Shown one piece after another: positions 43,023 to 57,778 of a DNA stretch of 64,000 bases (the first letter of the stretch is position 1; each line of letters begins with the position of its first letter). Both the position numbers and the translations under genes were made by a program. The notes below the pieces were generated by a model. It was not told the DNA's origin. It did not search any database and worked only from the letters and a program-made list of their open reading frames with translations. The stretch comes from Brevundimonas sp. (GTDB lineage: Bacteria > Pseudomonadota > Alphaproteobacteria > Caulobacterales > Caulobacteraceae), in assembly GCA_027531145.1 (NCBI GenBank), contig JAPZRF010000002.1, positions 172,291 to 236,290 on the forward strand, given 5' to 3'.

Positions 43023-43646
43023 CTAGGTGCCCCCCTTCCGCGCCAGCCAGATGGTGGCGTCGCCGGTGGAGGGGTCGTCGCGGACGTGGGCGGACACCGC
43101 CAGTCCGCCGGCGGCGAGCGCCGCACGGTAGCCGTCGGGGTCGAGGCTGGCATGGTAGAGGGGCGCGCCGCTCCAGTCGCCGAGGGTCTCGCCCGCCGTC
43201 CCGCCGCTGGTGAACATCAGGACCCCGCCCGGAACCAGCCAGCCACCGATCCGCGTCAGCAGGGCAGCCTGCTCGGCCGGGCGCAGGTGGAACAGGCTGT
43301 GCCAGGCGATCACCCCGGCGCCGGGCGTCTCCGGGCTCCAGCTGCGCATGTCGGCGCAGCGCCAGGTCTGGTCGGGCAGGGCCTCCGCGGCGGCGGCCAG
43401 CAGAGCCTCCGAGGCGTCGATTCCCTCCACCGACCGCCCCTGTCGCGCCATATAGGCGGCGATGGGCCGGCCCGCGCCGCAGCCCAGGTCGAGGACGCGG
43501 CCGGGCGGGGTCAGGGCCAGCATCCGGTCCAGCCAGGGCCGCTCGAACAGGCCGAGGCTGCGCCGGGCGATGAAATCCTCCGCCCCGGCGCGATAGAGGT
43601 CGACGACCGCCGCGGCGGCCCGACTCAGCGCATCAGGCGTCGGCAC
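43023..43646 (-). CDS. Class I SAM-dependent methyltransferase
   Basis: A 207-residue methyltransferase. SAM-binding motif I is RVLDLGCGAGRPIAAYMARQ, followed by VEGIDASEALLAAA (motif II acidic residue) and GVIAWHSLFHLRP. The substrate is unknown. The start ATG 43646 lies within parB; the coding regions overlap by 22 nt on the same strand, so it probably belongs to the mnmG-rsmG-parA-parB transcript. Confidence 0.85.
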   Translation of the reverse strand: MPTPDALSRAAAAVVDLYRAGAEDFIARRSLGLFERPWLDRMLALTPPGRVLDLGCGAGRPIAAYMARQGRSVEGIDASEALLAAAAEALPDQTWRCADMRSWSPETPGAGVIAWHSLFHLRPAEQAALLTRIGGWLVPGGVLMFTSGGTAGETLGDWSGAPLYHASLDPDGYRAALAAGGLAVSAHVRDDPSTGDATIWLARKGGT

Positions 43647-44524
43647 AGGTCGTCGAGCTGCTCGAGCGTGCCGAACCTGATCGTCAGATCGCCGCGGCCG
43701 TCGCGATAGGCGAGCTGCACCTTGAGCCCCAGCACATCGGCCAGATCCTGCTCGAGAGCAGCGATGTCGGGGGAGGCCTCGCCGGCACCGCCCCTGCGCG
43801 CCGGACGGGGGGCACCGGGCCCCTGCACCGCTTGACGGGCGAGGGCCTCGGTCTGGCGCACGTTCAGCCCCTTGGCGAGCACCTCATGGGCCAGGGCCCC
43901 GGGGTCCGGAGCGGTGATCAGGGCGCGGGCGTGGCCGGCGCTGAGGCGGCCGTCGGCGACCATGCCGCGCACCTCCTCCGGCAGCTGCAGCAGGCGCAGG
44001 ACGTTGGCCACATGGCTGCGGCTCTTGCCGACCACGCCGGCGAGGGCGTCCTGGGTGCGACCGAACCGCTCCATCAACTGCCGATAGGCCTCGGCCTCGT
44101 CGATCGGATTGAGGTCGGCGCGCTGGACGTTCTCGATGATGGCGACCTCGAGCACCTCGATGTCGTCCATCTCGCGCGCGATCACCGGCACCTCGGTCAG
44201 GCGGGCCGCCTGCGCCGCGCGCCAGCGCCGCTCGCCGGCGATGATCTGCCACATCCCCGGCTCGCCCGGCCGGGGGCGCACGAGGATGGGCTGCAGCACG
44301 CCCTTGTCGCGGATCGAGGCGGCCAGTTCGTCCAGCTCCACCAGACTGAAGGAGCGGCGGGGCTGGTCGGGGTTGGGCCGGAGGGTCTCGATCGGCGCGT
44401 AGCGCACGCCGCCGGAGCCCGGCTCGACCGGCCCGGCCACCGGGGCTTCGACCGAGATGTCCTCGCCCAGCAGCGCCGACAGACCGCGCCCCAGACCCCG
44501 CTGGCGTTCACTCACCACGTTCAC
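43625..44524 (-). CDS. parB: Chromosome partition protein ParB
   Basis: CTP-dependent DNA clamp that loads at parS and spreads, directing origin segregation. The 299-residue protein has an N-terminal ParA-stimulating peptide (GLGRGLSALLG), the CTPase motifs PNPDQPRRSF, IIAGERRWRAAQAA and IIENVQRADLNPIDEAEAY, the helix-turn-helix VVGKSRSHVANVLRLLQLP, and a C-terminal dimerisation domain. Three parS-like sites lie within 6 kb upstream. It is preceded by parA. Confidence 0.97.
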   Translation of the reverse strand: MNVVSERQRGLGRGLSALLGEDISVEAPVAGPVEPGSGGVRYAPIETLRPNPDQPRRSFSLVELDELAASIRDKGVLQPILVRPRPGEPGMWQIIAGERRWRAAQAARLTEVPVIAREMDDIEVLEVAIIENVQRADLNPIDEAEAYRQLMERFGRTQDALAGVVGKSRSHVANVLRLLQLPEEVRGMVADGRLSAGHARALITAPDPGALAHEVLAKGLNVRQTEALARQAVQGPGAPRPARRGGAGEASPDIAALEQDLADVLGLKVQLAYRDGRGDLTIRFGTLEQLDDLCRRLMR

Positions 44525-44559
44525 TCACCCCTCTTGAGAATCAGCCCGGACAGGGCAGG

Positions 44560-45378
44560 TCAGGCCGCCGCCGCCTGACGACGCTGGCGTTCGCGCATCA
44601 CCACCTCTCGGGCCAGCCTGAGATAGGCCTGGCTGCCGGCACAGTTGAGGTCATAGATCAGGGCCGGCTTGCCGAACGACGGTGCCTCCGAGACCCGCAC
44701 ATTCCGGGGGATCACCGCGTCATAGACCTTGTCGCCGAAGTGGGCCCGCACATCGTTGGCCACCTGGCCGGAAAGGGCGTTGCGGCGGTCGAACATGGTC
44801 AGGACCAGGCCCTGGATCTCCAGCGCCGGATTGAGACTCCGCTTGACCATGTCGACGGTGCGCATCAGCTGGGTCAGCCCCTCCAGGGCAAAGAATTCGC
44901 ACTGCAGCGGCACCAGCACCGCGTCCGCGGCGGCCATGGCGTTCAGCGTCAACAGGTTGAGCGAGGGCGGACAGTCGATCAACACATAGTCATACCGGGT
45001 CTGCCCGGGCACGTCCCCCTGTTTCGCCAGCCCGTCGCGCAGCCGGAAGGAGCGACGGTCGGCATTGGCCAGCTCGATCTCGATGCCGGCCATGTCAGCG
45101 TCGGCGGGAATGATGTCGAGCCCGGGCACCGAGGTGTGCACGGCGGCGTCAGCCACGGCGCGGCCGTCGACGACCACGTCATAGATGGTCACCCGCCGCG
45201 TTTCACGTGGAACGCCCAGCCCCGTCGAGGCATTGCCCTGGGGATCCATGTCGACGATAAGCACCCGCTCACCGATGGCGGCGAGGGCCGTGCCGAGATT
45301 TATGGCCGTGGTCGTCTTGCCGACCCCGCCCTTCTGGTTGGACACGGCGAGGACGCGGGGGGAACGCTCAGCGGACAC
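44560..45378 (-). CDS. parA: Chromosome partition ATPase ParA
   Basis: Deviant Walker ATPase of 272 residues that moves ParB-parS complexes. The P-loop KGGVGKTT, LIVDMDPQGNAS and DYVLIDCPPSLN are intact. The GTG start at 45378 is chosen because a GGAG site lies upstream and the protein then begins a few residues before VLAVSNQKGG; the longer frame to 45519 is antisense-free but lies inside rsmG. It overlaps the rsmG 3' end by 11 nt. A parS-type site lies within codons 55-60 (45199-45214). Confidence 0.96.
   Translation of the reverse strand: MSAERSPRVLAVSNQKGGVGKTTTAINLGTALAAIGERVLIVDMDPQGNASTGLGVPRETRRVTIYDVVVDGRAVADAAVHTSVPGLDIIPADADMAGIEIELANADRRSFRLRDGLAKQGDVPGQTRYDYVLIDCPPSLNLLTLNAMAAADAVLVPLQCEFFALEGLTQLMRTVDMVKRSLNPALEIQGLVLTMFDRRNALSGQVANDVRAHFGDKVYDAVIPRNVRVSEAPSFGKPALIYDLNCAGSQAYLRLAREVVMRERQRRQAAAA
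45199..45214. promoter_or_regulatory. parS-like site inside parA
   Basis: CGTTTCACGTGGAACG. The inner 14 bases GTTTCACGTGGAAC equal the core of the Bacillus-type parS (read on the other strand). It lies within the parA coding sequence. Confidence 0.75.
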
Positions 45379-45982
45379 GGCGAAGTCTCCGGACGAGAAC
45401 AAGCCGGCCGCGAGGATCGCTGGCCGACGGCAGAAGCTCGGCATCGATCTGCCAGGATTTTCGGGCCTCGCGCAACTCGTCCGCCGCCCGCTGTCCCTTG
45501 AGGAACAGGCCTTGTCCACCGGCAGCGATGTACGGCTGTGCGTAACTGAGCAGCTTCTCCAGCGGTGCCACGGCGCGGGCGGTCACCACCTCGACCTTGA
45601 GCCGCTGGTCCTCGGCCCGGCCGTGGACCACCGTGGCCGGCAGACCCAGCTCGTCAACGATGGACGCTAGGAAGCGACAGCGCTTGGCCAGGCTCTCGAC
45701 CAGCCAGACATGGGCCCCGGGGCGCCCTTTCAGGAGTATGGCCAGAACCACCCCGGGAAGGCCCGCCCCGGCGCCCAGGTCGGCCCATGTCAGGGCCCCG
45801 GGCCTCTCGTGCAGAAGTTGGGCACTGTCCCAGGCGTGACGGTTCCAGAAGTCCAGCAGGGTGTCCGGGCCAACGAGGTTCATCACCGCATTGCCCTCGG
45901 TCAGACACCCGAGGAAGCGGTCGAGGTCGGCCATGGCCGCATCGCCGGCGAGGGTGCGCGCCTGAAACGCCTCGCGGGTCAT
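45368..45982 (-). CDS. rsmG: 16S rRNA (guanine527-N7)-methyltransferase
   Basis: A 204-residue rRNA methyltransferase (GidB). SAM motif WADLGAGAGLPGVVLAILL, then VWLVESLAKRCRFLASI, HGRAEDQ and VVTARAVAPLEKLL match RsmG. Its ATG shares one base with the mnmG stop (TGATG). Conserved mnmG-rsmG-parA-parB order near the origin. Confidence 0.96.
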   Translation of the reverse strand: MTREAFQARTLAGDAAMADLDRFLGCLTEGNAVMNLVGPDTLLDFWNRHAWDSAQLLHERPGALTWADLGAGAGLPGVVLAILLKGRPGAHVWLVESLAKRCRFLASIVDELGLPATVVHGRAEDQRLKVEVVTARAVAPLEKLLSYAQPYIAAGGQGLFLKGQRAADELREARKSWQIDAELLPSASDPRGRLVLVRRLRRVR

Positions 45983-47918: not shown

Positions 47919-47934
47919 TGTTTCACGTGAAACC
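47919..47934. promoter_or_regulatory. parS site upstream of mnmG
   Basis: TGTTTCACGTGAAACC, one mismatch (last base) from the consensus TGTTTCACGTGAAACA, with a perfect 14-bp palindrome core. It lies in the 258-bp gap between mnmE and mnmG. Confidence 0.9.
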
Positions 47935-49804: not shown

Positions 49805-50797
49805 ATGCCACCGACCGACAGCCGAATACGCGCCGTGCGCCTCGACGGACCCGGCGGGCCGGAGGTGCTGCGGCTGGTCGAGACGGGGCAGCCAGAACCC
49901 GGACCGGGAGAAATCCGGGTGCGCCATGCGGCCATCGGACTCAACTTCATCGACGTCTATCAGCGCACCGGCCTCTACCCCCTCGCCTGGCCGTCGGGTC
50001 TCGGCCTCGAGGCCGCCGGCGTGGTCGAGACGACCGGCCCCGGGGTTCGCCGTTTCCGGCCCGGCGACCGGGTTGCCTACGCTAACGGCCCCGTCGGTGC
50101 CTATGCCGAAGCCCACATCGTGCCCGAAGGGCGCGCCGTCCGCGTCCCCGACGATCTGCCGCTGGAGACCGCCGCCGGGGCCCTGCTCAAGGGCATGACG
50201 GCGGAGATGCTGCTGCGTCGGGTGTTTCACGTGAAACCGGGCCAGACGATCCTGCTGCATGCGGCCGCCGGCGGGGTGGGGCTGCTGCTCGCCCAGTGGG
50301 CGCGGGCCCTCGGTGCCAGGGTGATCGGGACGGTCGGGGACGCCGTCAAGGCCGAGCTGGCCCTCGCCCGGGGCTGCGACCACGTCATCCTGTACGGCGA
50401 GGAGGATGTGGCCGAGCGGGTGCGGGCGCTGACCGACGGCGACGGGGTGGCGGTGGTCTATGACTCCGTCGGTGCCGCCACGGCCGAAGCCTCACTGGAC
50501 AGCCTGGCGCGGCGGGGCATGTACGTCAGCTTTGGCAACGCGTCCGGCCCCGCGCCGGCGGTCGCGCCCCTGCGCCTGTCGCGGGGCGGCTCGCTGTTCA
50601 TGACGCGGCCGACGCTGTTCGACTATGTGGCGACGACCGACGAGCTGGACGCCGCCGCGGCCGCCCTCTTCCGGGTGATCCGCGACGGATCGGTGCAGGT
50701 GCGGATCGGCCAGACCTTCCCCCTTGCCGAGGCCGCCGAGGCCCATCGCGCTCTGGAGGCGCGGCGCACCACAGGCTCGACCCTGCTGATCCCCTGA
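49805..50797 (+). CDS. Quinone oxidoreductase family protein (zeta-crystallin type MDR)
   Basis: A 330-residue NADPH-dependent medium-chain reductase without the structural zinc. Features: NFIDVYQRTGLYPL, GLEAAGVVETTGPGV, the nucleotide-binding LLHAAAGGVGLLLAQWARALG and YDSVGAATAEASLD, and GMYVSFGNASGP. ATG 49805 has an AAGGA ribosome site. The codons for VFHVKP (about residue 141-146) form a parS site. Confidence 0.92.
   Translation: MPPTDSRIRAVRLDGPGGPEVLRLVETGQPEPGPGEIRVRHAAIGLNFIDVYQRTGLYPLAWPSGLGLEAAGVVETTGPGVRRFRPGDRVAYANGPVGAYAEAHIVPEGRAVRVPDDLPLETAAGALLKGMTAEMLLRRVFHVKPGQTILLHAAAGGVGLLLAQWARALGARVIGTVGDAVKAELALARGCDHVILYGEEDVAERVRALTDGDGVAVVYDSVGAATAEASLDSLARRGMYVSFGNASGPAPAVAPLRLSRGGSLFMTRPTLFDYVATTDELDAAAAALFRVIRDGSVQVRIGQTFPLAEAAEAHRALEARRTTGSTLLIP
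50223..50238. promoter_or_regulatory. parS site inside quinone oxidoreductase gene
   Basis: TGTTTCACGTGAAACC, identical to the site at 47919-47934. It is embedded in coding sequence and encodes FHVK. Confidence 0.9.
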
Positions 50798-52920: not shown

Positions 52921-53975
52921 GCGGGGCGCTTCCCGCGCTTCTCGGCCTGGCTGGGGCAGGCCTTCCAGCGGCCCTGGCAGCCGGGTCCGAACGGGGCCAC
53001 TCCGGTCCGGCCCAGCGCCTCTTCCACCGCCTCGGCGAGAGCGCCAATGAAGCGTGGCGCGACGCTGACGGTCGGGACCCGCAGATAGGGGCTAATGCCG
53101 TACTCATGGGCCAGCTCGCCATATTCGATGTCGAGCTCGACAAGGGTCTCGATATGCTCGGAGACGAAGGCAATCGGGACGAGGACCACGCCCTTGCCGT
53201 CGCGGCCGGCGGTCTCGATCGCGTCCGGGGTGGCCGGACCCAGCCACTTCAGCGGCCCGACCCGGCTCTGGTAGCACAGGCTCCAGTCAATCTGCCCGAG
53301 GCGGGCGGCGACGGCCGCACAGGTAGCCTCGACCTGTTCCTGATAGGGGTCGCCCTTGCCGGTGACCAGCATTTCCGGGATCCCGTGGGCTGAGAACAAA
53401 ACCCGAACTGGCCGGCTTCCGGCCTCGGTCAGCCGTTCACGGATCATCGCCGCCTGGGCCTCCAGCCAGCCCTCCGCCTGCGGATAGCAGCAGACGGTGC
53501 GGCTACGGCCCGGGCCGCGATAGACCTCGTTCCAGATCTTCAGCGACGACTGGGTCGTGGTGGTCGAGAACTGCGGATAGAGAGGCAGCTGGACAATCTC
53601 GTCCGGCGCAAAGGCGGCCACCTCTGCGGCGGTCCGAGCCGTCATCGGGTGCCAGTAGCGCATGGCGATGAAGACCCCGACCTCCGCCCGCGGAAACCGG
53701 ACCGCCAGTTCGGCCTTCAAGGCCTCGGCTTGGCGCCGGGTCTCCCCCAGCAGGGGAGAGCCCCCGCCCATGCGAGCGTAGTTCGCCTGCGCCTCACGCT
53801 CGCGGCGGCTGGAGATCAGCCGGGCCACAAGGGTGCGCAGGATACCCGGCAGACCGATGATGGCCGGGTCATTAAACAGGTTGAACAGGAACGGCTTGAC
53901 GCTGGCCTGGTCGTCCGGCCCGCCCAGGTTGAACAGGACGACGGCGATGCGCCGGCCCGCAGCTGTGTCCGTCAT
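52917..53975 (-). CDS. hemH: Ferrochelatase
   Basis: A 352-residue enzyme inserting Fe2+ into protoporphyrin IX. Segments: AVVLFNLGGPDDQASVKPFL, YARMGGGSPLLGETRRQAEAL, VFIAMRYWHPMT, PLYPQFSTTTTQSSLK, VRVLFSAHGIPEMLV (catalytic His) and IAFVSEHIETLVELDIEY. Start overlaps the hemE stop by 4 nt. Confidence 0.97.
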   Translation of the reverse strand: MTDTAAGRRIAVVLFNLGGPDDQASVKPFLFNLFNDPAIIGLPGILRTLVARLISSRREREAQANYARMGGGSPLLGETRRQAEALKAELAVRFPRAEVGVFIAMRYWHPMTARTAAEVAAFAPDEIVQLPLYPQFSTTTTQSSLKIWNEVYRGPGRSRTVCCYPQAEGWLEAQAAMIRERLTEAGSRPVRVLFSAHGIPEMLVTGKGDPYQEQVEATCAAVAARLGQIDWSLCYQSRVGPLKWLGPATPDAIETAGRDGKGVVLVPIAFVSEHIETLVELDIEYGELAHEYGISPYLRVPTVSVAPRFIGALAEAVEEALGRTGVAPFGPGCQGRWKACPSQAEKRGKRPA

Positions 53976-55012
53976 TCCGCGCCGATCCTCTTCAGCACCT
54001 GTTCCACATGGGCGATCGGCGTATCCGGAAGGATGCCGTGCCCTAGGTTGAAGACGTAGGGGCCCTGGCCCCAGGCGTCCAGCAGGACGTCAACCCTGCG
54101 GTCCAGGGCCGCGCCCCCGGCCCGCAGCAGCAGGGGGTCCAGCGCGCCCTGGATCGGCTTGATCGCCTGCACCCGCCGGCCGACCTCGAGCGGACAGGCG
54201 GTGTCCAGCGCCACGGCCTGGACGTCGCAGCCAGCGGCGTAGCGCTCGGCCAGGGCCGCCGAGCCGCGCGGGAAGCCGATCAGGGGCACAGTCACGCCCA
54301 GCTCGCGCACCCGCGCCACAAGCTTCTGATGCGGGGCCAGCACCAGCCGGTCGAACAGCTCATCCGACAGCCCCTCCGCCCAGCTCTCGAAGATTTTCAG
54401 GACCTGGGCGCCGGCCTCGGCCTGCATCTTCAGATAGTGGGCGGTGGCCTCGACCAGCACGTCCAGCACCGCCTCGACATGGGCCGCGTCGCGATAGACG
54501 AAGTCCCGGGCCAGGGCCCGCTCGCCCTTGCCGATGGTTCGGTTGGCCCCGTCGAGCATGTAGGTGGCCACGGTCCAGGGCGCGCCGGCGAAGCCGATCA
54601 GGGTGCGCTGCGAGTCCATCGCCGCCCGCACCCGCGACAGAGTCTCGCCGACCGGCGAAAGGGCGCGGCCGGCTTCTTCGGCCAGAGCCGCCATCGCCTC
54701 AACCGGCGGCAGTTCGCCAAGCACCGGCCCCTCGCCAGCCTCGAAGGCCACCTTCTGCCCCAGCGCCTGAGGGATCAGCAGGATGTCGGCGAAGACAATG
54801 GCGGCGCTGAACGGAAAACGACGCATGGGCTGCAGGGTCGCCTCTGCGGCTTTCTCCGGATCGAGGCAGAAACCCACGAAGTCAGCCGCCGTGGCCCGGA
54901 GGGCACGGTACTCGGGCAGGTAACGGCCCGCCTGGCGCATGAACCAAACCGGCGGCGTCGCCAGGGTTTCACCGTCAAGGACGCGAAGGAGGGCCGGGCG
55001 CGAAGAGCTCAT
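53972..55012 (-). CDS. hemE: Uroporphyrinogen decarboxylase
   Basis: A 346-residue enzyme of haem synthesis. N-terminal signature PPVWFMRQAGRYLPEYRALR, then FSAAIVFADILLIPQALG, GFAGAPWTVATYMLDG, IFESWAEGL and YVFNLGHGILPDTP. It heads the hemE-hemH-hemJ operon and abuts the putative origin; in Caulobacter the hemE promoter lies within the origin and is CtrA-linked. Confidence 0.97.
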   Translation of the reverse strand: MSSSRPALLRVLDGETLATPPVWFMRQAGRYLPEYRALRATAADFVGFCLDPEKAAEATLQPMRRFPFSAAIVFADILLIPQALGQKVAFEAGEGPVLGELPPVEAMAALAEEAGRALSPVGETLSRVRAAMDSQRTLIGFAGAPWTVATYMLDGANRTIGKGERALARDFVYRDAAHVEAVLDVLVEATAHYLKMQAEAGAQVLKIFESWAEGLSDELFDRLVLAPHQKLVARVRELGVTVPLIGFPRGSAALAERYAAGCDVQAVALDTACPLEVGRRVQAIKPIQGALDPLLLRAGGAALDRRVDVLLDAWGQGPYVFNLGHGILPDTPIAHVEQVLKRIGAE

Positions 55013-55202
55013 GGGGCGGCTCTAGGGCACCGGAACCGACGGCTCAATCCCCGCCCCTTGTCCCTACCCTGCCTCTCTTCTGAAATGAGATAGTGGAAGG
55101 AAGTGGCGGGGTCGAACACCGGGCACCGATCAGCCCCTGTCCCGCCCGGAGCCGGGGTTCTCCACCCTCTCGCGAGGGCCACTGTCAGCACTCCGGTCGG
55201 CC

Positions 55203-55211
55203 TGTCGATAA
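55203..55211 (-). promoter_or_regulatory. DnaA-box-like site
   Basis: TGTCGATAA on plus, that is TTATCGACA on minus: one mismatch to TTATCCACA. Within the putative origin. Confidence 0.5.
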
Positions 55212-55287
55212 CCGGGACAAATCCTGACGAAACCTGGCCCGCCGGGGTCCGGGCCGGGATCATGTCGGGGATATCGGCTGTGCGCTG

Positions 55288-55302
55288 TTAGGGATTGATT
55301 AA
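55288..55302 (+). promoter_or_regulatory. CtrA-binding-site-like sequence
   Basis: TTAGGGATTGATTAA: TTAG, 7 bp, TTAA, followed by CC. One base from the full CtrA consensus TTAA-N7-TTAA. In Caulobacter CtrA silences the origin through such sites. Confidence 0.6.
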
Positions 55303-55450
55303 CCTTCCACCGAAGCCCCTAAGGGGGCCGTCCTCCGGGGGAGAACATGCCCCGCGGAGCTTCCTCTTCTCCACTGTTGTCCCTGCTCGCCGCCGACGGA
55401 GACGCGCGCTATAGGAAACGGTGCCCCGCGGCCCCGGTCGTGTCCGGGCG

Positions 55451-55459
55451 TCATCCACA
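55451..55459 (+). promoter_or_regulatory. DnaA-box-like site
   Basis: TCATCCACA: one mismatch to TTATCCACA and one to the Caulobacter G-box TGATCCACA. Lies 48 bp before the ppsR start. Confidence 0.55.
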
Positions 55460-55506
55460 GCACGTCCAGTGTCCGACGCGAGATCACGCACGGGAATCCG
55501 CCGCTC

Positions 55507-56364
55507 ATGCATAAGCCGTACGGTCGGCTCGCCACCTACTTCCACGTTCACCTCGTGTCGGACTCCACCGGCGAGACGCTCAACGCCATGGCCAAGGCGG
55601 TCGTGGCCCGTTTCGACGGGGTCATCCCGATCGAGCACATCTATGCGCTGGTGCGCTCGCGCAAGCAGCTGGACCGGGTCCTGGAGGAGATCGCCGCCGC
55701 CCCGGGCGTGGTGCTGCACACGATTGTCGACAAGGAGCTGCGTGCGGCGCTGGAAGACGGCTGCCGGATGCTCGACACGCCCCAGATCGGAGCGCTGGAC
55801 CCCCTGGTCGGGGCCCTGTCGCGCTATCTTGGAGCCGCCCTCTCGACCCGGGTCGGAGCCCAGCACGCCCTGGACCATGACTATTTCAACCGCATCAGCG
55901 CCCTCGACTTCGCCATGGCCCATGACGACGGCCAGGGCACGGCCGAGGAGCTGGAGCGCGCCGATGTGGTTCTGTGCGGGGTCAGCCGCACCTCGAAAAC
56001 CCCGACCTGTATCTATCTGGCCCATCGCGGGGTGCGCGCCGCGAATGTCCCGCTGGTCCCGGGCCAGGAGGACGGGGAGCGGCTGGTCGGGCTGCGCAAC
56101 CCGCTGGTGGTCGGCCTGACCGTCTCACCGGACCGTCTGGTGCAGATCCGCCGAAACCGCCTCGACGCCCTCAACGCCGATCGCGCCTCGTCCTATGTCG
56201 ACCACGACGCCGTGCGCGACGAGACCGTGAAGGCGCGCCGGGCCTTCGAACGGCGCGGCTGGCCGGTGATCGACGTGACCCGCCGCTCGGTCGAAGAGAC
56301 CGCCGCCGCCATCGTCAATCTGCTCAGCGAGCGCCGCACGCACCGGCTGGGGGCCAGCTGGTGA
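55507..56364 (+). CDS. ppsR: Pyruvate,phosphate dikinase regulatory protein (DUF299, RP001 type)
   Basis: A 285-residue bifunctional kinase/phosphorylase of the PSRP/PPRP family, which phosphorylates and dephosphorylates PEP synthase or PPDK. Markers: YFHVHLVSDSTGETLNAMAK at the N-terminus, DALDHDYFNRI-type region (HALDHDYFNRISALDFAMAHDDG), the P-loop-like GVSRTSKTPTCIYLAHRG and VGLTVSPDRLVQIRRNRL. It is the first gene to the right of the putative origin, as RP001 is in Caulobacter and Rickettsia. Its stop overlaps the maf start (GTGA). Confidence 0.93.
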   Translation: MHKPYGRLATYFHVHLVSDSTGETLNAMAKAVVARFDGVIPIEHIYALVRSRKQLDRVLEEIAAAPGVVLHTIVDKELRAALEDGCRMLDTPQIGALDPLVGALSRYLGAALSTRVGAQHALDHDYFNRISALDFAMAHDDGQGTAEELERADVVLCGVSRTSKTPTCIYLAHRGVRAANVPLVPGQEDGERLVGLRNPLVVGLTVSPDRLVQIRRNRLDALNADRASSYVDHDAVRDETVKARRAFERRGWPVIDVTRRSVEETAAAIVNLLSERRTHRLGASW

Positions 56365-56957
56365 GCGCGGTCCCGCTTGTGCTGGCCTCGGCCAGCGCCA
56401 CCCGGCGCGCCCTGCTAACCGGAGCCGGGGTGCCCCATGCGGTCGAGCCGTCCGGCGTCGACGAGCCGGCGCTCAGGGCCGGCTGGCCCGACGCGACCCC
56501 GGGCGAGGTGGCGCAGCGGCTGGCCGAGGCCAAGGCGCTGGACGTCTCGGCCCGCCGGCCGGGAGTGCTTGTGCTGGGCTCGGACCAGACCCTCGACCTT
56601 GACGGCCGCACCCTCGACAAGGTCCAGGACCTGGCCGCCGCGCGGGACCGTCTGCTGGCCCTGCGTGGCCGCGCCCATCGCCTGCACAGCGGCGCGGCCC
56701 TGGCCCGGGATGGCGAGGTTCTGTGGACGGCGCTGGACAGCGCCACCTTGATTGTCCGCGACTTCTCCGATGCCTTTCTTGACACCTATCTCGCCGGCGA
56801 AGGCCTGCTGGCGCTGAGCTCGGTAGCCTGCTACCGGCTGGAGGGTCCGGGCCTGCAGCTGATGACCCGGGTTGAGGGCGACCACAGCACCATCCTCGGC
56901 CTGCCCATGCTGCCCGTTCTGGAGGCCCTGCGCCGCCACGGGGCGCTGGTGCCATGA
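56361..56957 (+). CDS. maf: Maf/Ham1-family nucleotide pyrophosphatase
   Basis: A 198-residue house-cleaning phosphatase. [19 protein letters not shown] is the Maf N-terminal signature, followed by [17 protein letters not shown] (catalytic Asp) and [29 protein letters not shown] at the C-terminus. GTG start at 56361 is coupled to ppsR; the stop overlaps the aroE start by 4 nt. Confidence 0.93.
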
Positions 56958-57778
56958 ACGGGCCGGTGACCGCCGGCGTCGCCGGCCGCCCGATCGGCCA
57001 TTCCCTCAGTCCCCTGATCCACAGCGCCTGGCTGCAGGCAGCCGGGTTCGCCGGCCAATACCTTGCATTCGAGCCGGCCGACGAGGCGGGTTTCACCCGG
57101 CTGGTCGACCGTATCCGCACCGGGGACCTGATCGGGATCAATGTCACCGCCCCGCACAAGGAGACGGCCTTGGCGCTCGCGGACTTCGCCACCGACACCG
57201 CCCGGGCGGCGGGGTCGGCCAATGTTTTGGCCCTTCTGGACGGCCACTTGCTGGCCGACAGCACGGACGGACGGGGCCTGCTCGAAACCCTGGCCGATCA
57301 GGCCCCGGGGCTCGATCTGTCGGCCCGGGCGGCTGTCATTCTCGGTGCCGGCGGCGCGGCGCGGGCGGCGGTGGCGGCGCTGCGGGCCGCCGGCGCGCCC
57401 GAAATCCGGCTGGTCAACCGCACCCGGGCCCGGGCCGAGGCCCTGGCAGAGGTGTTCGGCCCGCCGGTGCGCGCCGCCGGGCCCGAGGCACTGGACGGCG
57501 ACGCCGGGCTGGTGGTCAGTGCCGCCGTCAGCGGGGACTTCCCCGACCTGTCCCGCCTGCCCGCGGGGGCGGCGGTGATGGACATGACCTACATGCCGCT
57601 GGAGACGCCCCTGCTTGCGGCCGCGCGGGCGGCGGGGCTGACGCCGGTCGACGGCCTCGGCATGCTGATCGGCCAGGCCCGGCCGGCCTTCGCCCGCTTC
57701 TTCGGCCGCCCGGCCCCGGACCTCGATGTGCGCGCCCTCGCCCTGGCCGAGCTGGCCCGACGCGAGGCGCAGCCATGA
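56954..57778 (+). CDS. aroE: Shikimate dehydrogenase
   Basis: A 274-residue NADPH enzyme of aromatic amino-acid synthesis. [19 protein letters not shown] (substrate Ser residues), [13 protein letters not shown] (catalytic Lys), SADNT-like STDGRGLL, the nucleotide fold [29 protein letters not shown] and [13 protein letters not shown]. Overlaps maf and coaE by 4 nt each. Confidence 0.97.

Follow-up and report, generated by a model that had tools for sequence, protein, structure and literature searches.

Repression of the Caulobacter crescentus origin, Cori, by CtrA is the textbook link between development and replication, and the oriC of Escherichia coli is known for its many Dam GATC sites and for SeqA. 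Cori is flanked by hemE and COG1806 (RP001), as described in the available part of PMC1914354. According to the available portion of a review, removal of all five Cori CtrA sites leaves the laboratory cell cycle of C. crescentus largely normal (PMC4468827).

The locus described here, from a Brevundimonas chromosome, resembles Cori in having the same flanking genes and parS nearby, in CtrA-type sites interleaved with weak DnaA boxes, and in a box at the same place near RP001. It differs in possessing one recognisable CtrA site against five in the Caulobacter genome G096, in carrying no exact G-box or W-box, and in the position of dnaA, which is unlinked in the seven Brevundimonas tested but lies 5-6 kb from RP001 in G096. 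We consider it highly likely that the gap between hemE and RP001 is the Brevundimonas origin, homologous to Cori in place and layout, at which DnaA would start replication and which CtrA would probably still repress through one remaining site.

A comparable reduction is described for Wolbachia, Ehrlichia, Anaplasma and Rickettsia, where the origin also adjoins hemE and CtrA sites are few or absent, and where orthologs of dnaA and ctrA mostly persist (PMC1914354, available part). These bacteria are obligate intracellular, however, whereas Brevundimonas is a free-living genus; furthermore, the boundary genes differ in Wolbachia, Ehrlichia and Anaplasma, whereas Brevundimonas displays stepwise decay between intact neighbours. 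A genus with two, one or zero origin CtrA sites and, in most of the genomes examined, an intact ctrA is a natural experiment on the purpose of these sites.

Gene neighbourhood and GC skew

The DNA analysed is a 64-kb window (G000:C46:172291-236290) from a 2.85-Mb draft genome in 52 contigs. Open reading frames and profile matches delimit within it a 494-bp gap between a divergent hemE on the minus strand and RP001 on the plus strand. The principal features of the neighbourhood are as follows.

43625..44524, minus strand: parB (open reading frame; named by eye from sequence)
44560..45519, minus strand: parA (open reading frame, start uncertain; named by eye from sequence)
47919..47934, no strand assigned: parS-like site TGTTTCACGTGAAACC (G000:C46:220209)
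50223..50238, no strand assigned: parS-like site TGTTTCACGTGAAACC (G000:C46:222513)
53972..55012, minus strand: hemE, uroporphyrinogen decarboxylase, left flank (TIGR01464, 348.9 bits; cut-off 302.95)
55013..55506, no strand assigned: hemE-RP001 intergenic region, very probably a Cori-type origin (gene order, open reading frames, nearby parS, skew, genus-wide conserved blocks)
55507..56364, plus strand: RP001 gene, PpsR/DUF299 kinase-pyrophosphorylase family, right flank (NF003742, 319.1 bits; cut-off 225)

Leftward from the gap the order is hemE, hemH, hemJ-like, rho, mnmE, mnmG, rsmG, parA, parB and holA; rightward it is RP001, maf, aroE, coaE, dnaQ and secB. Profiles name hemE, hemH, rho, mnmE, dnaQ, secB and RP001, the remainder being named by eye, and beyond the immediate flanks we take this order to agree with the Cori neighbourhood. 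The nearest relatives of the RP001 product are from Brevundimonas (89-90% identity). A search of 54500-56500 against Rfam returned no match at E<=1. The partitioning locus is close at hand: besides the parB and parA frames (43625-45519), the window contains two parS-like sites 5-7 kb from the gap, and in all ten genomes searched RP001 has a parS cluster no more than 12 kb away, with a few weaker sites farther off.

Skew adds to this picture. On C46, the contig that contains the window, GC skew changes from -0.031 left of the gap to +0.006 right of it; the cumulative minimum falls approximately 19 kb beyond the gap on the right (based on 296 of the contig's 314 kb, in a genome of 52 contigs). 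In another Brevundimonas genome, G127, 20 stretches taken round the chromosome form two arms of opposite sign with a single exception at the start of the record. Denser sampling of G127 gave negative values in all four stretches left of or across the gap and positive values in all eight to its right, the sign turning at the hemE-RP001 gap from one 20-kb stretch to the next and the flip being placed within about 25 kb of the gap. The nearest sister by sequence identity, G112, was sampled in 40 stretches covering 29% of the chromosome. Its skew changes sharply on the terminus side, near 1.75-1.85 Mb, and diffusely on the origin side, where the best break lies at 1.0-1.1 Mb by 4-fold sites or at 0.64-0.68 Mb by raw skew and the gap at 0.53 Mb. 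Taken as a fixed hypothesis, the gap is not the best break in G112 but attains a permutation p of 0.003-0.004 and ranks third and fifth among 40 rotations; it receives no significant support from gene-strand bias in this genome (p 0.11). In G122, 12 stretches give a mixed skew around the gap.

The original prediction of a probable chromosomal origin is thus supported by the Cori gene order, the nearby parS, the change in C46 and the flip in G127, and 55013-55506 very probably represents a Brevundimonas chromosome origin of the Cori type. The GC-skew check proposed with it gives a mixed answer: C46 changes sign and G127 flips at the gap, but G112 and G122 fail to pinpoint it.

CtrA-type sites and DnaA boxes within the gap

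The elements recognised within the gap, several by alignment with the gaps of relatives, are listed below.

55065..55104, no strand assigned: AT-richest 40 bases, hemE side, weak candidate unwinding element (55% AT)
55158..55166, plus strand: TTCTCCACC, DnaA-box-like, candidate weak box (TCC columns conserved)
55203..55211, minus strand: TTATCGACA, the other DnaA box of the original prediction (one mismatch; not conserved)
55224..55238, no strand assigned: eroded CtrA site A, CTGACGAAACCTGGC, upstream position (5 of 8 consensus bases lost; alignment)
55288..55302, no strand assigned: CtrA-type site B, TTAGGGATTGATTAA, TTAG-N7-TTAA, conserved downstream CtrA position (scan and alignment)
55304..55312, plus strand: CTTCCACCG, degenerate counterpart of the TTTTCCACAG box found after CtrA site B in relatives (alignment)
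55367..55375, plus strand: TTCTCCACT, DnaA-box-like, candidate weak box (in a conserved TCCAC block)
55408..55414, plus strand: GCTATAG block, strongly conserved (alignment of gaps)
55420..55425, no strand assigned: GGTGCC where relatives carry the first of two GGCGCC palindromes (alignment)
55440..55445, no strand assigned: GTGTCC where relatives carry the second GGCGCC palindrome (alignment)
55451..55459, plus strand: DnaA box TCATCCACA near RP001 (one mismatch; at the place of the -31 TGATCCACA box of Caulobacter G096)

For comparison, 230 readable gaps were reduced to the 173 whose RP001 was at least 77% identical, with a minimum of 250 residues covered, and then to 124 distinct gaps from Brevundimonas and its nearest relatives, at least three rows (L108-L110) having other genus codes. 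Left out of the counts were L053, L081, L082 and L085 (4 of 80 loci, with hemE out of reach), L208 and L215 (outside the gap filter), L294 (101 bases, clipped at a contig end) and L216 (a 100-base extra stretch). The 124 gaps contain 77 exact CtrA sites where 0.1 are expected, and 192 with at most one mismatch against about 5.5 (5.45) expected; as a control, the identical scan returns five of the latter in Caulobacter G096, the number expected of Cori. Twenty-one gaps have no site, 19 have one, 79 have two and five have three. Spacing within the two-site gaps is 50-70 bp in 77 of 79, with a median of 64.

Against this background the CtrA-type TTAG-N7-TTAA at 55288-55302, put forward in the original prediction, proves to be real. 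With one mismatch to TTAA-N7-TTAA, it is the sole match of at most one mismatch in 64 kb (expected 0.10; at least one in 7 of 100 shuffles), such a site arises in 36 cases when the gap by itself is shuffled 5000 times, and it aligns with the site conserved in relatives. Site A lies 64 bp upstream, equal to the median spacing of relatives; the CtrA consensus is represented in the gap by one imperfect site and an eroded second. As a statement about sequence, the predicted sparseness of the CtrA set likewise stands: one recognisable site, where G096 has five and 84 of the 124 gaps compared have at least two. We infer that the upstream member of an ancestral CtrA pair has decayed and that CtrA probably still represses the origin through the downstream member, placed between DnaA boxes. 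The window's genome has an intact ctrA (227 residues, 89% identity). Genome-wide counts of exact CtrA sites were discarded as a sign of a kept CtrA regulon, being small and, in many genomes, near those of a backward-pattern control; in locus L004 of the window's genome, another exact site lies within an open reading frame and not at a promoter.

On a tree of RP001 DNA (quick IQ-TREE, SH-aLRT support only), the 21 siteless gaps consist of the single rows L087 and L232 and a 19-member clade (support 99), which amounts to at least three changes.

Two further readings of the window must be weighed against a Cori-type origin under residual CtrA control. The origin may have moved, for instance to the dnaA locus on another contig, leaving the gap as a relict with the hemE and RP001 promoters. 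Indeed, dnaA of the window's genome is on a separate contig (G000:C38:116288-116770) and is unlinked to the gap in all seven Brevundimonas tested (G000, G112, G122, G127, G139, G233 and G255), several conserved gap elements are altered in the window, and the skew of C46 is weak. We nevertheless regard such a move as very improbable, for parS clusters adjoin the gap, the G127 skew flips there, and the window agrees at 107 of 137 strongly conserved columns, against 102-112 in the five nearest rows listed and 125 in the median row. Moreover, an origin at dnaA is ruled out by the skew of G112, G122 and G127, which keeps the same sign across this gene: in G127, dnaA is 195 kb from the gap and within the positive-skew part, and in G122 both sides of it are negative. 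Alternatively, the gap may be an origin that is CtrA-independent, its CtrA-type site being a chance survivor or a flanking promoter element to which CtrA no longer binds there. This appears unlikely to us, if deserving of serious thought. Site B does have one mismatch and a lost partner, L087 (G112) has TTAG-N7-TTAG with two mismatches at the same place, and loss has occurred elsewhere in the set. Yet the TTAG-N7-TTAA form of site B is common to four tree neighbours (L247, L252, L255 and L281), each with a better site A. Furthermore, TTAG half-sites can work, because sciP expression in B. subvibrioides depends on a CtrA site whose half-sites are TAAA and TTAG (PMC7987155, available part). Under the residual control that we favour, CtrA input to the origin looks reduced, not absent.

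With respect to DnaA, we take the G-box TGATCCACA and the W-box TCCCCA to be the motifs of Cori. The window gap has no exact copy of either, and the one-mismatch TCATCCACA occupies the G-box position; this lowers the case for identity with Cori, but not for working like Cori, because relatives vary there too. Both DnaA-box-like sites of the original prediction exist with one mismatch, and they are two of only four such sites in the window. The one at 55451-55459 is conserved, falling in a strongly conserved TCCACAG block, and 69 of the 105 gaps outside the CtrA-less clade contain an exact TCCACA within their final 110 bp. The other, TTATCGACA at 55203-55211, occurs among the 124 gaps only in that of the window; it was rejected as a conserved DnaA box and is probably not a true one. 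In relatives, a conserved GGGGATAA-type (W-box-like) block comes after this position, and the GGGGAT-type (W-box-like) blocks that they keep are altered in the window gap. Across the window, boxes with at most two mismatches are not enriched (43 against 34.3 expected; 7 of 100 shuffles reach 43). Whether C. crescentus has more DnaA boxes, as had been claimed, depends on the counting of weak ones: in the available parts of the two sources, Cori has five DnaA boxes (PMC1914354) or only two moderate G-boxes with very weak W-boxes (PMC4468827). In this Brevundimonas, DnaA would start replication from one moderate box near RP001 (55451-55459) together with several weak boxes.

The AT-richer patch that had been predicted exists but is weak. 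The richest 40-mer, whose median place across the 124 gaps is -436 from RP001, lies here within a gap of 33% AT in a window of 28% AT.

Two minor observations concern this region. The GCTATAG at 55408-55414, among the best-kept gap blocks across relatives, may be the -10 element of the promoter of RP001. An exact TGATCCACA lies inside aroE at 57015-57023, 1.5 kb right of the gap, probably by chance.

Gaps without a CtrA site and the GGCGCC array

The clade of 19 includes B. diminuta (L040), B. bullata (L042), B. terrae (L046) and B. guildfordensis (L037), as well as the siteless rows L039, L041, L043, L105 and L107. The best CtrA matches in its gaps have two to three mismatches, the same as in shuffles, and a search of 60 bp of each flank adds no CtrA site. 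A near-full-length ctrA is nonetheless present in 18 of the 19 genomes, 88-90% identical to the Caulobacter query, the one in which none is listed being a 66%-complete draft (G186). Two rows are taxonomically odd: L041, titled Bordetella, has a Brevundimonas-like RP001 and gap, and L079, titled Brevundimonas vancanneytii, has an RP001 that is only 70% identical.

The most enriched hexamer in the gaps of this clade is GGCGCC, at 6-11 copies per gap. GGCGCC is also in excess outside the clade, with 236 copies in 105 gaps against 51 expected (at most seven in one gap) and 81 against 21 expected in 54 further Caulobacteraceae gaps; for this reason, a few GGCGCC sites are taken as ancestral, mostly those near RP001 and adjoining CtrA site B, and as amplified in the CtrA-less clade. 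Gain does not accompany every loss of CtrA sites, because the siteless singletons L087 and L232 have three and two copies, without gain. The window gap has none. In the 316 kb sampled, the window's genome avoids this hexamer (observed/expected 0.37, against 0.92-0.97 in G112, G122 and G127), so that its loss at this origin may follow a genome-wide trend. Among the papers listed in literature searches, largely openly accessible ones, we found no report of CtrA-site loss or of GGCGCC arrays in Brevundimonas origins.

We hypothesise that origin control in the 19-member clade is CtrA-independent and perhaps methylation-based. It is tempting to speculate further, in a joint reading that we ourselves hold to be rather improbable, that CtrA is losing its hold on the Brevundimonas origin and that in the 19 species its sites were replaced by the 6-11 GGCGCC, the reported motif of a solitary cytosine methyltransferase family found in 19 of 19 genomes. 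A GGCGCC-binding factor would then have taken over origin control from the CtrA phosphorelay, possibly via cytosine methylation in a manner like that of Dam and SeqA; the species of the window would represent an intermediate stage, in which a single CtrA site persists and the GGCGCC sites have likewise decayed. The CtrA-less clade alone shares with E. coli oriC many copies of a short methyltransferase palindrome within the origin, but its motif is that of a putative cytosine, not adenine, methyltransferase. If the array is functional, a solitary cytosine methyltransferase would gain a candidate role in replication control.

The array may instead be non-regulatory, the product of codon-like composition, biased mutation or a locally methylated hexamer protected by repair, and this we regard as a real possibility, though we lean against it. 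Triple GGCGCC clusters are common, at 43-55 per genome in G127, G171 and G174 (25-55 with G112 included), and those listed for two of the former three are spread over the chromosome; G139 has none. Such clusters, being common elsewhere in genomes, were ruled out as an origin marker. Helical phasing of the array is also weak (resultant 0.28). In addition, CtrA-site loss and GGCGCC gain are one event in the clade, so their pairing has no independent replication. Against a non-regulatory origin of the array stand its abundance, 162 copies in 19 gaps against 10-11 expected, with other GC palindromes at or below expectation, and its local density: in a sample of G127, 15.6 per kb in the gap against 2.2 per kb over 127 intergenic stretches, only one of which, of 126 bp, was denser. 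Conservation points the same way, the columns of the seven GGCGCC of L105 being 1.00 conserved in 19 rows against a mean of 0.78 elsewhere, among pairs down to 54% identity.

GGCGCC is the m5C motif of Caulobacter CCNA_03741 and the predicted motif of its B. subvibrioides ortholog Bresu_0174, for which methylation was not detected in that study; neither has a partner nuclease, according to the available part of the 2021 paper (PMC7987155). CCNA_03741 is one of two solitary cytosine methyltransferases in Caulobacter, the other, CCNA_01085 (ScmA), methylating YGCCGGCR, and the role of such enzymes is usually elusive, in the words available from this 2026 paper (PMC12907096). Brevundimonas homologs are approximately 47-56% identical to the CCNA_03741-like relative at 4.012 Mb of G096 and form two subfamilies about equally distant from it (L346, L348, L350, L338, L331, L334 and L344). 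Searched with the window's copy, 126 of the 131 genomes of the genus give a match at E<=0.001, a few of these being weak, and all 19 genomes of the CtrA-less clade give one with E below 1e-94. The family is not restricted to this clade, and its members are candidate players at the clade's GGCGCC sites. Both subfamilies co-occur in G174, G156 and G189.
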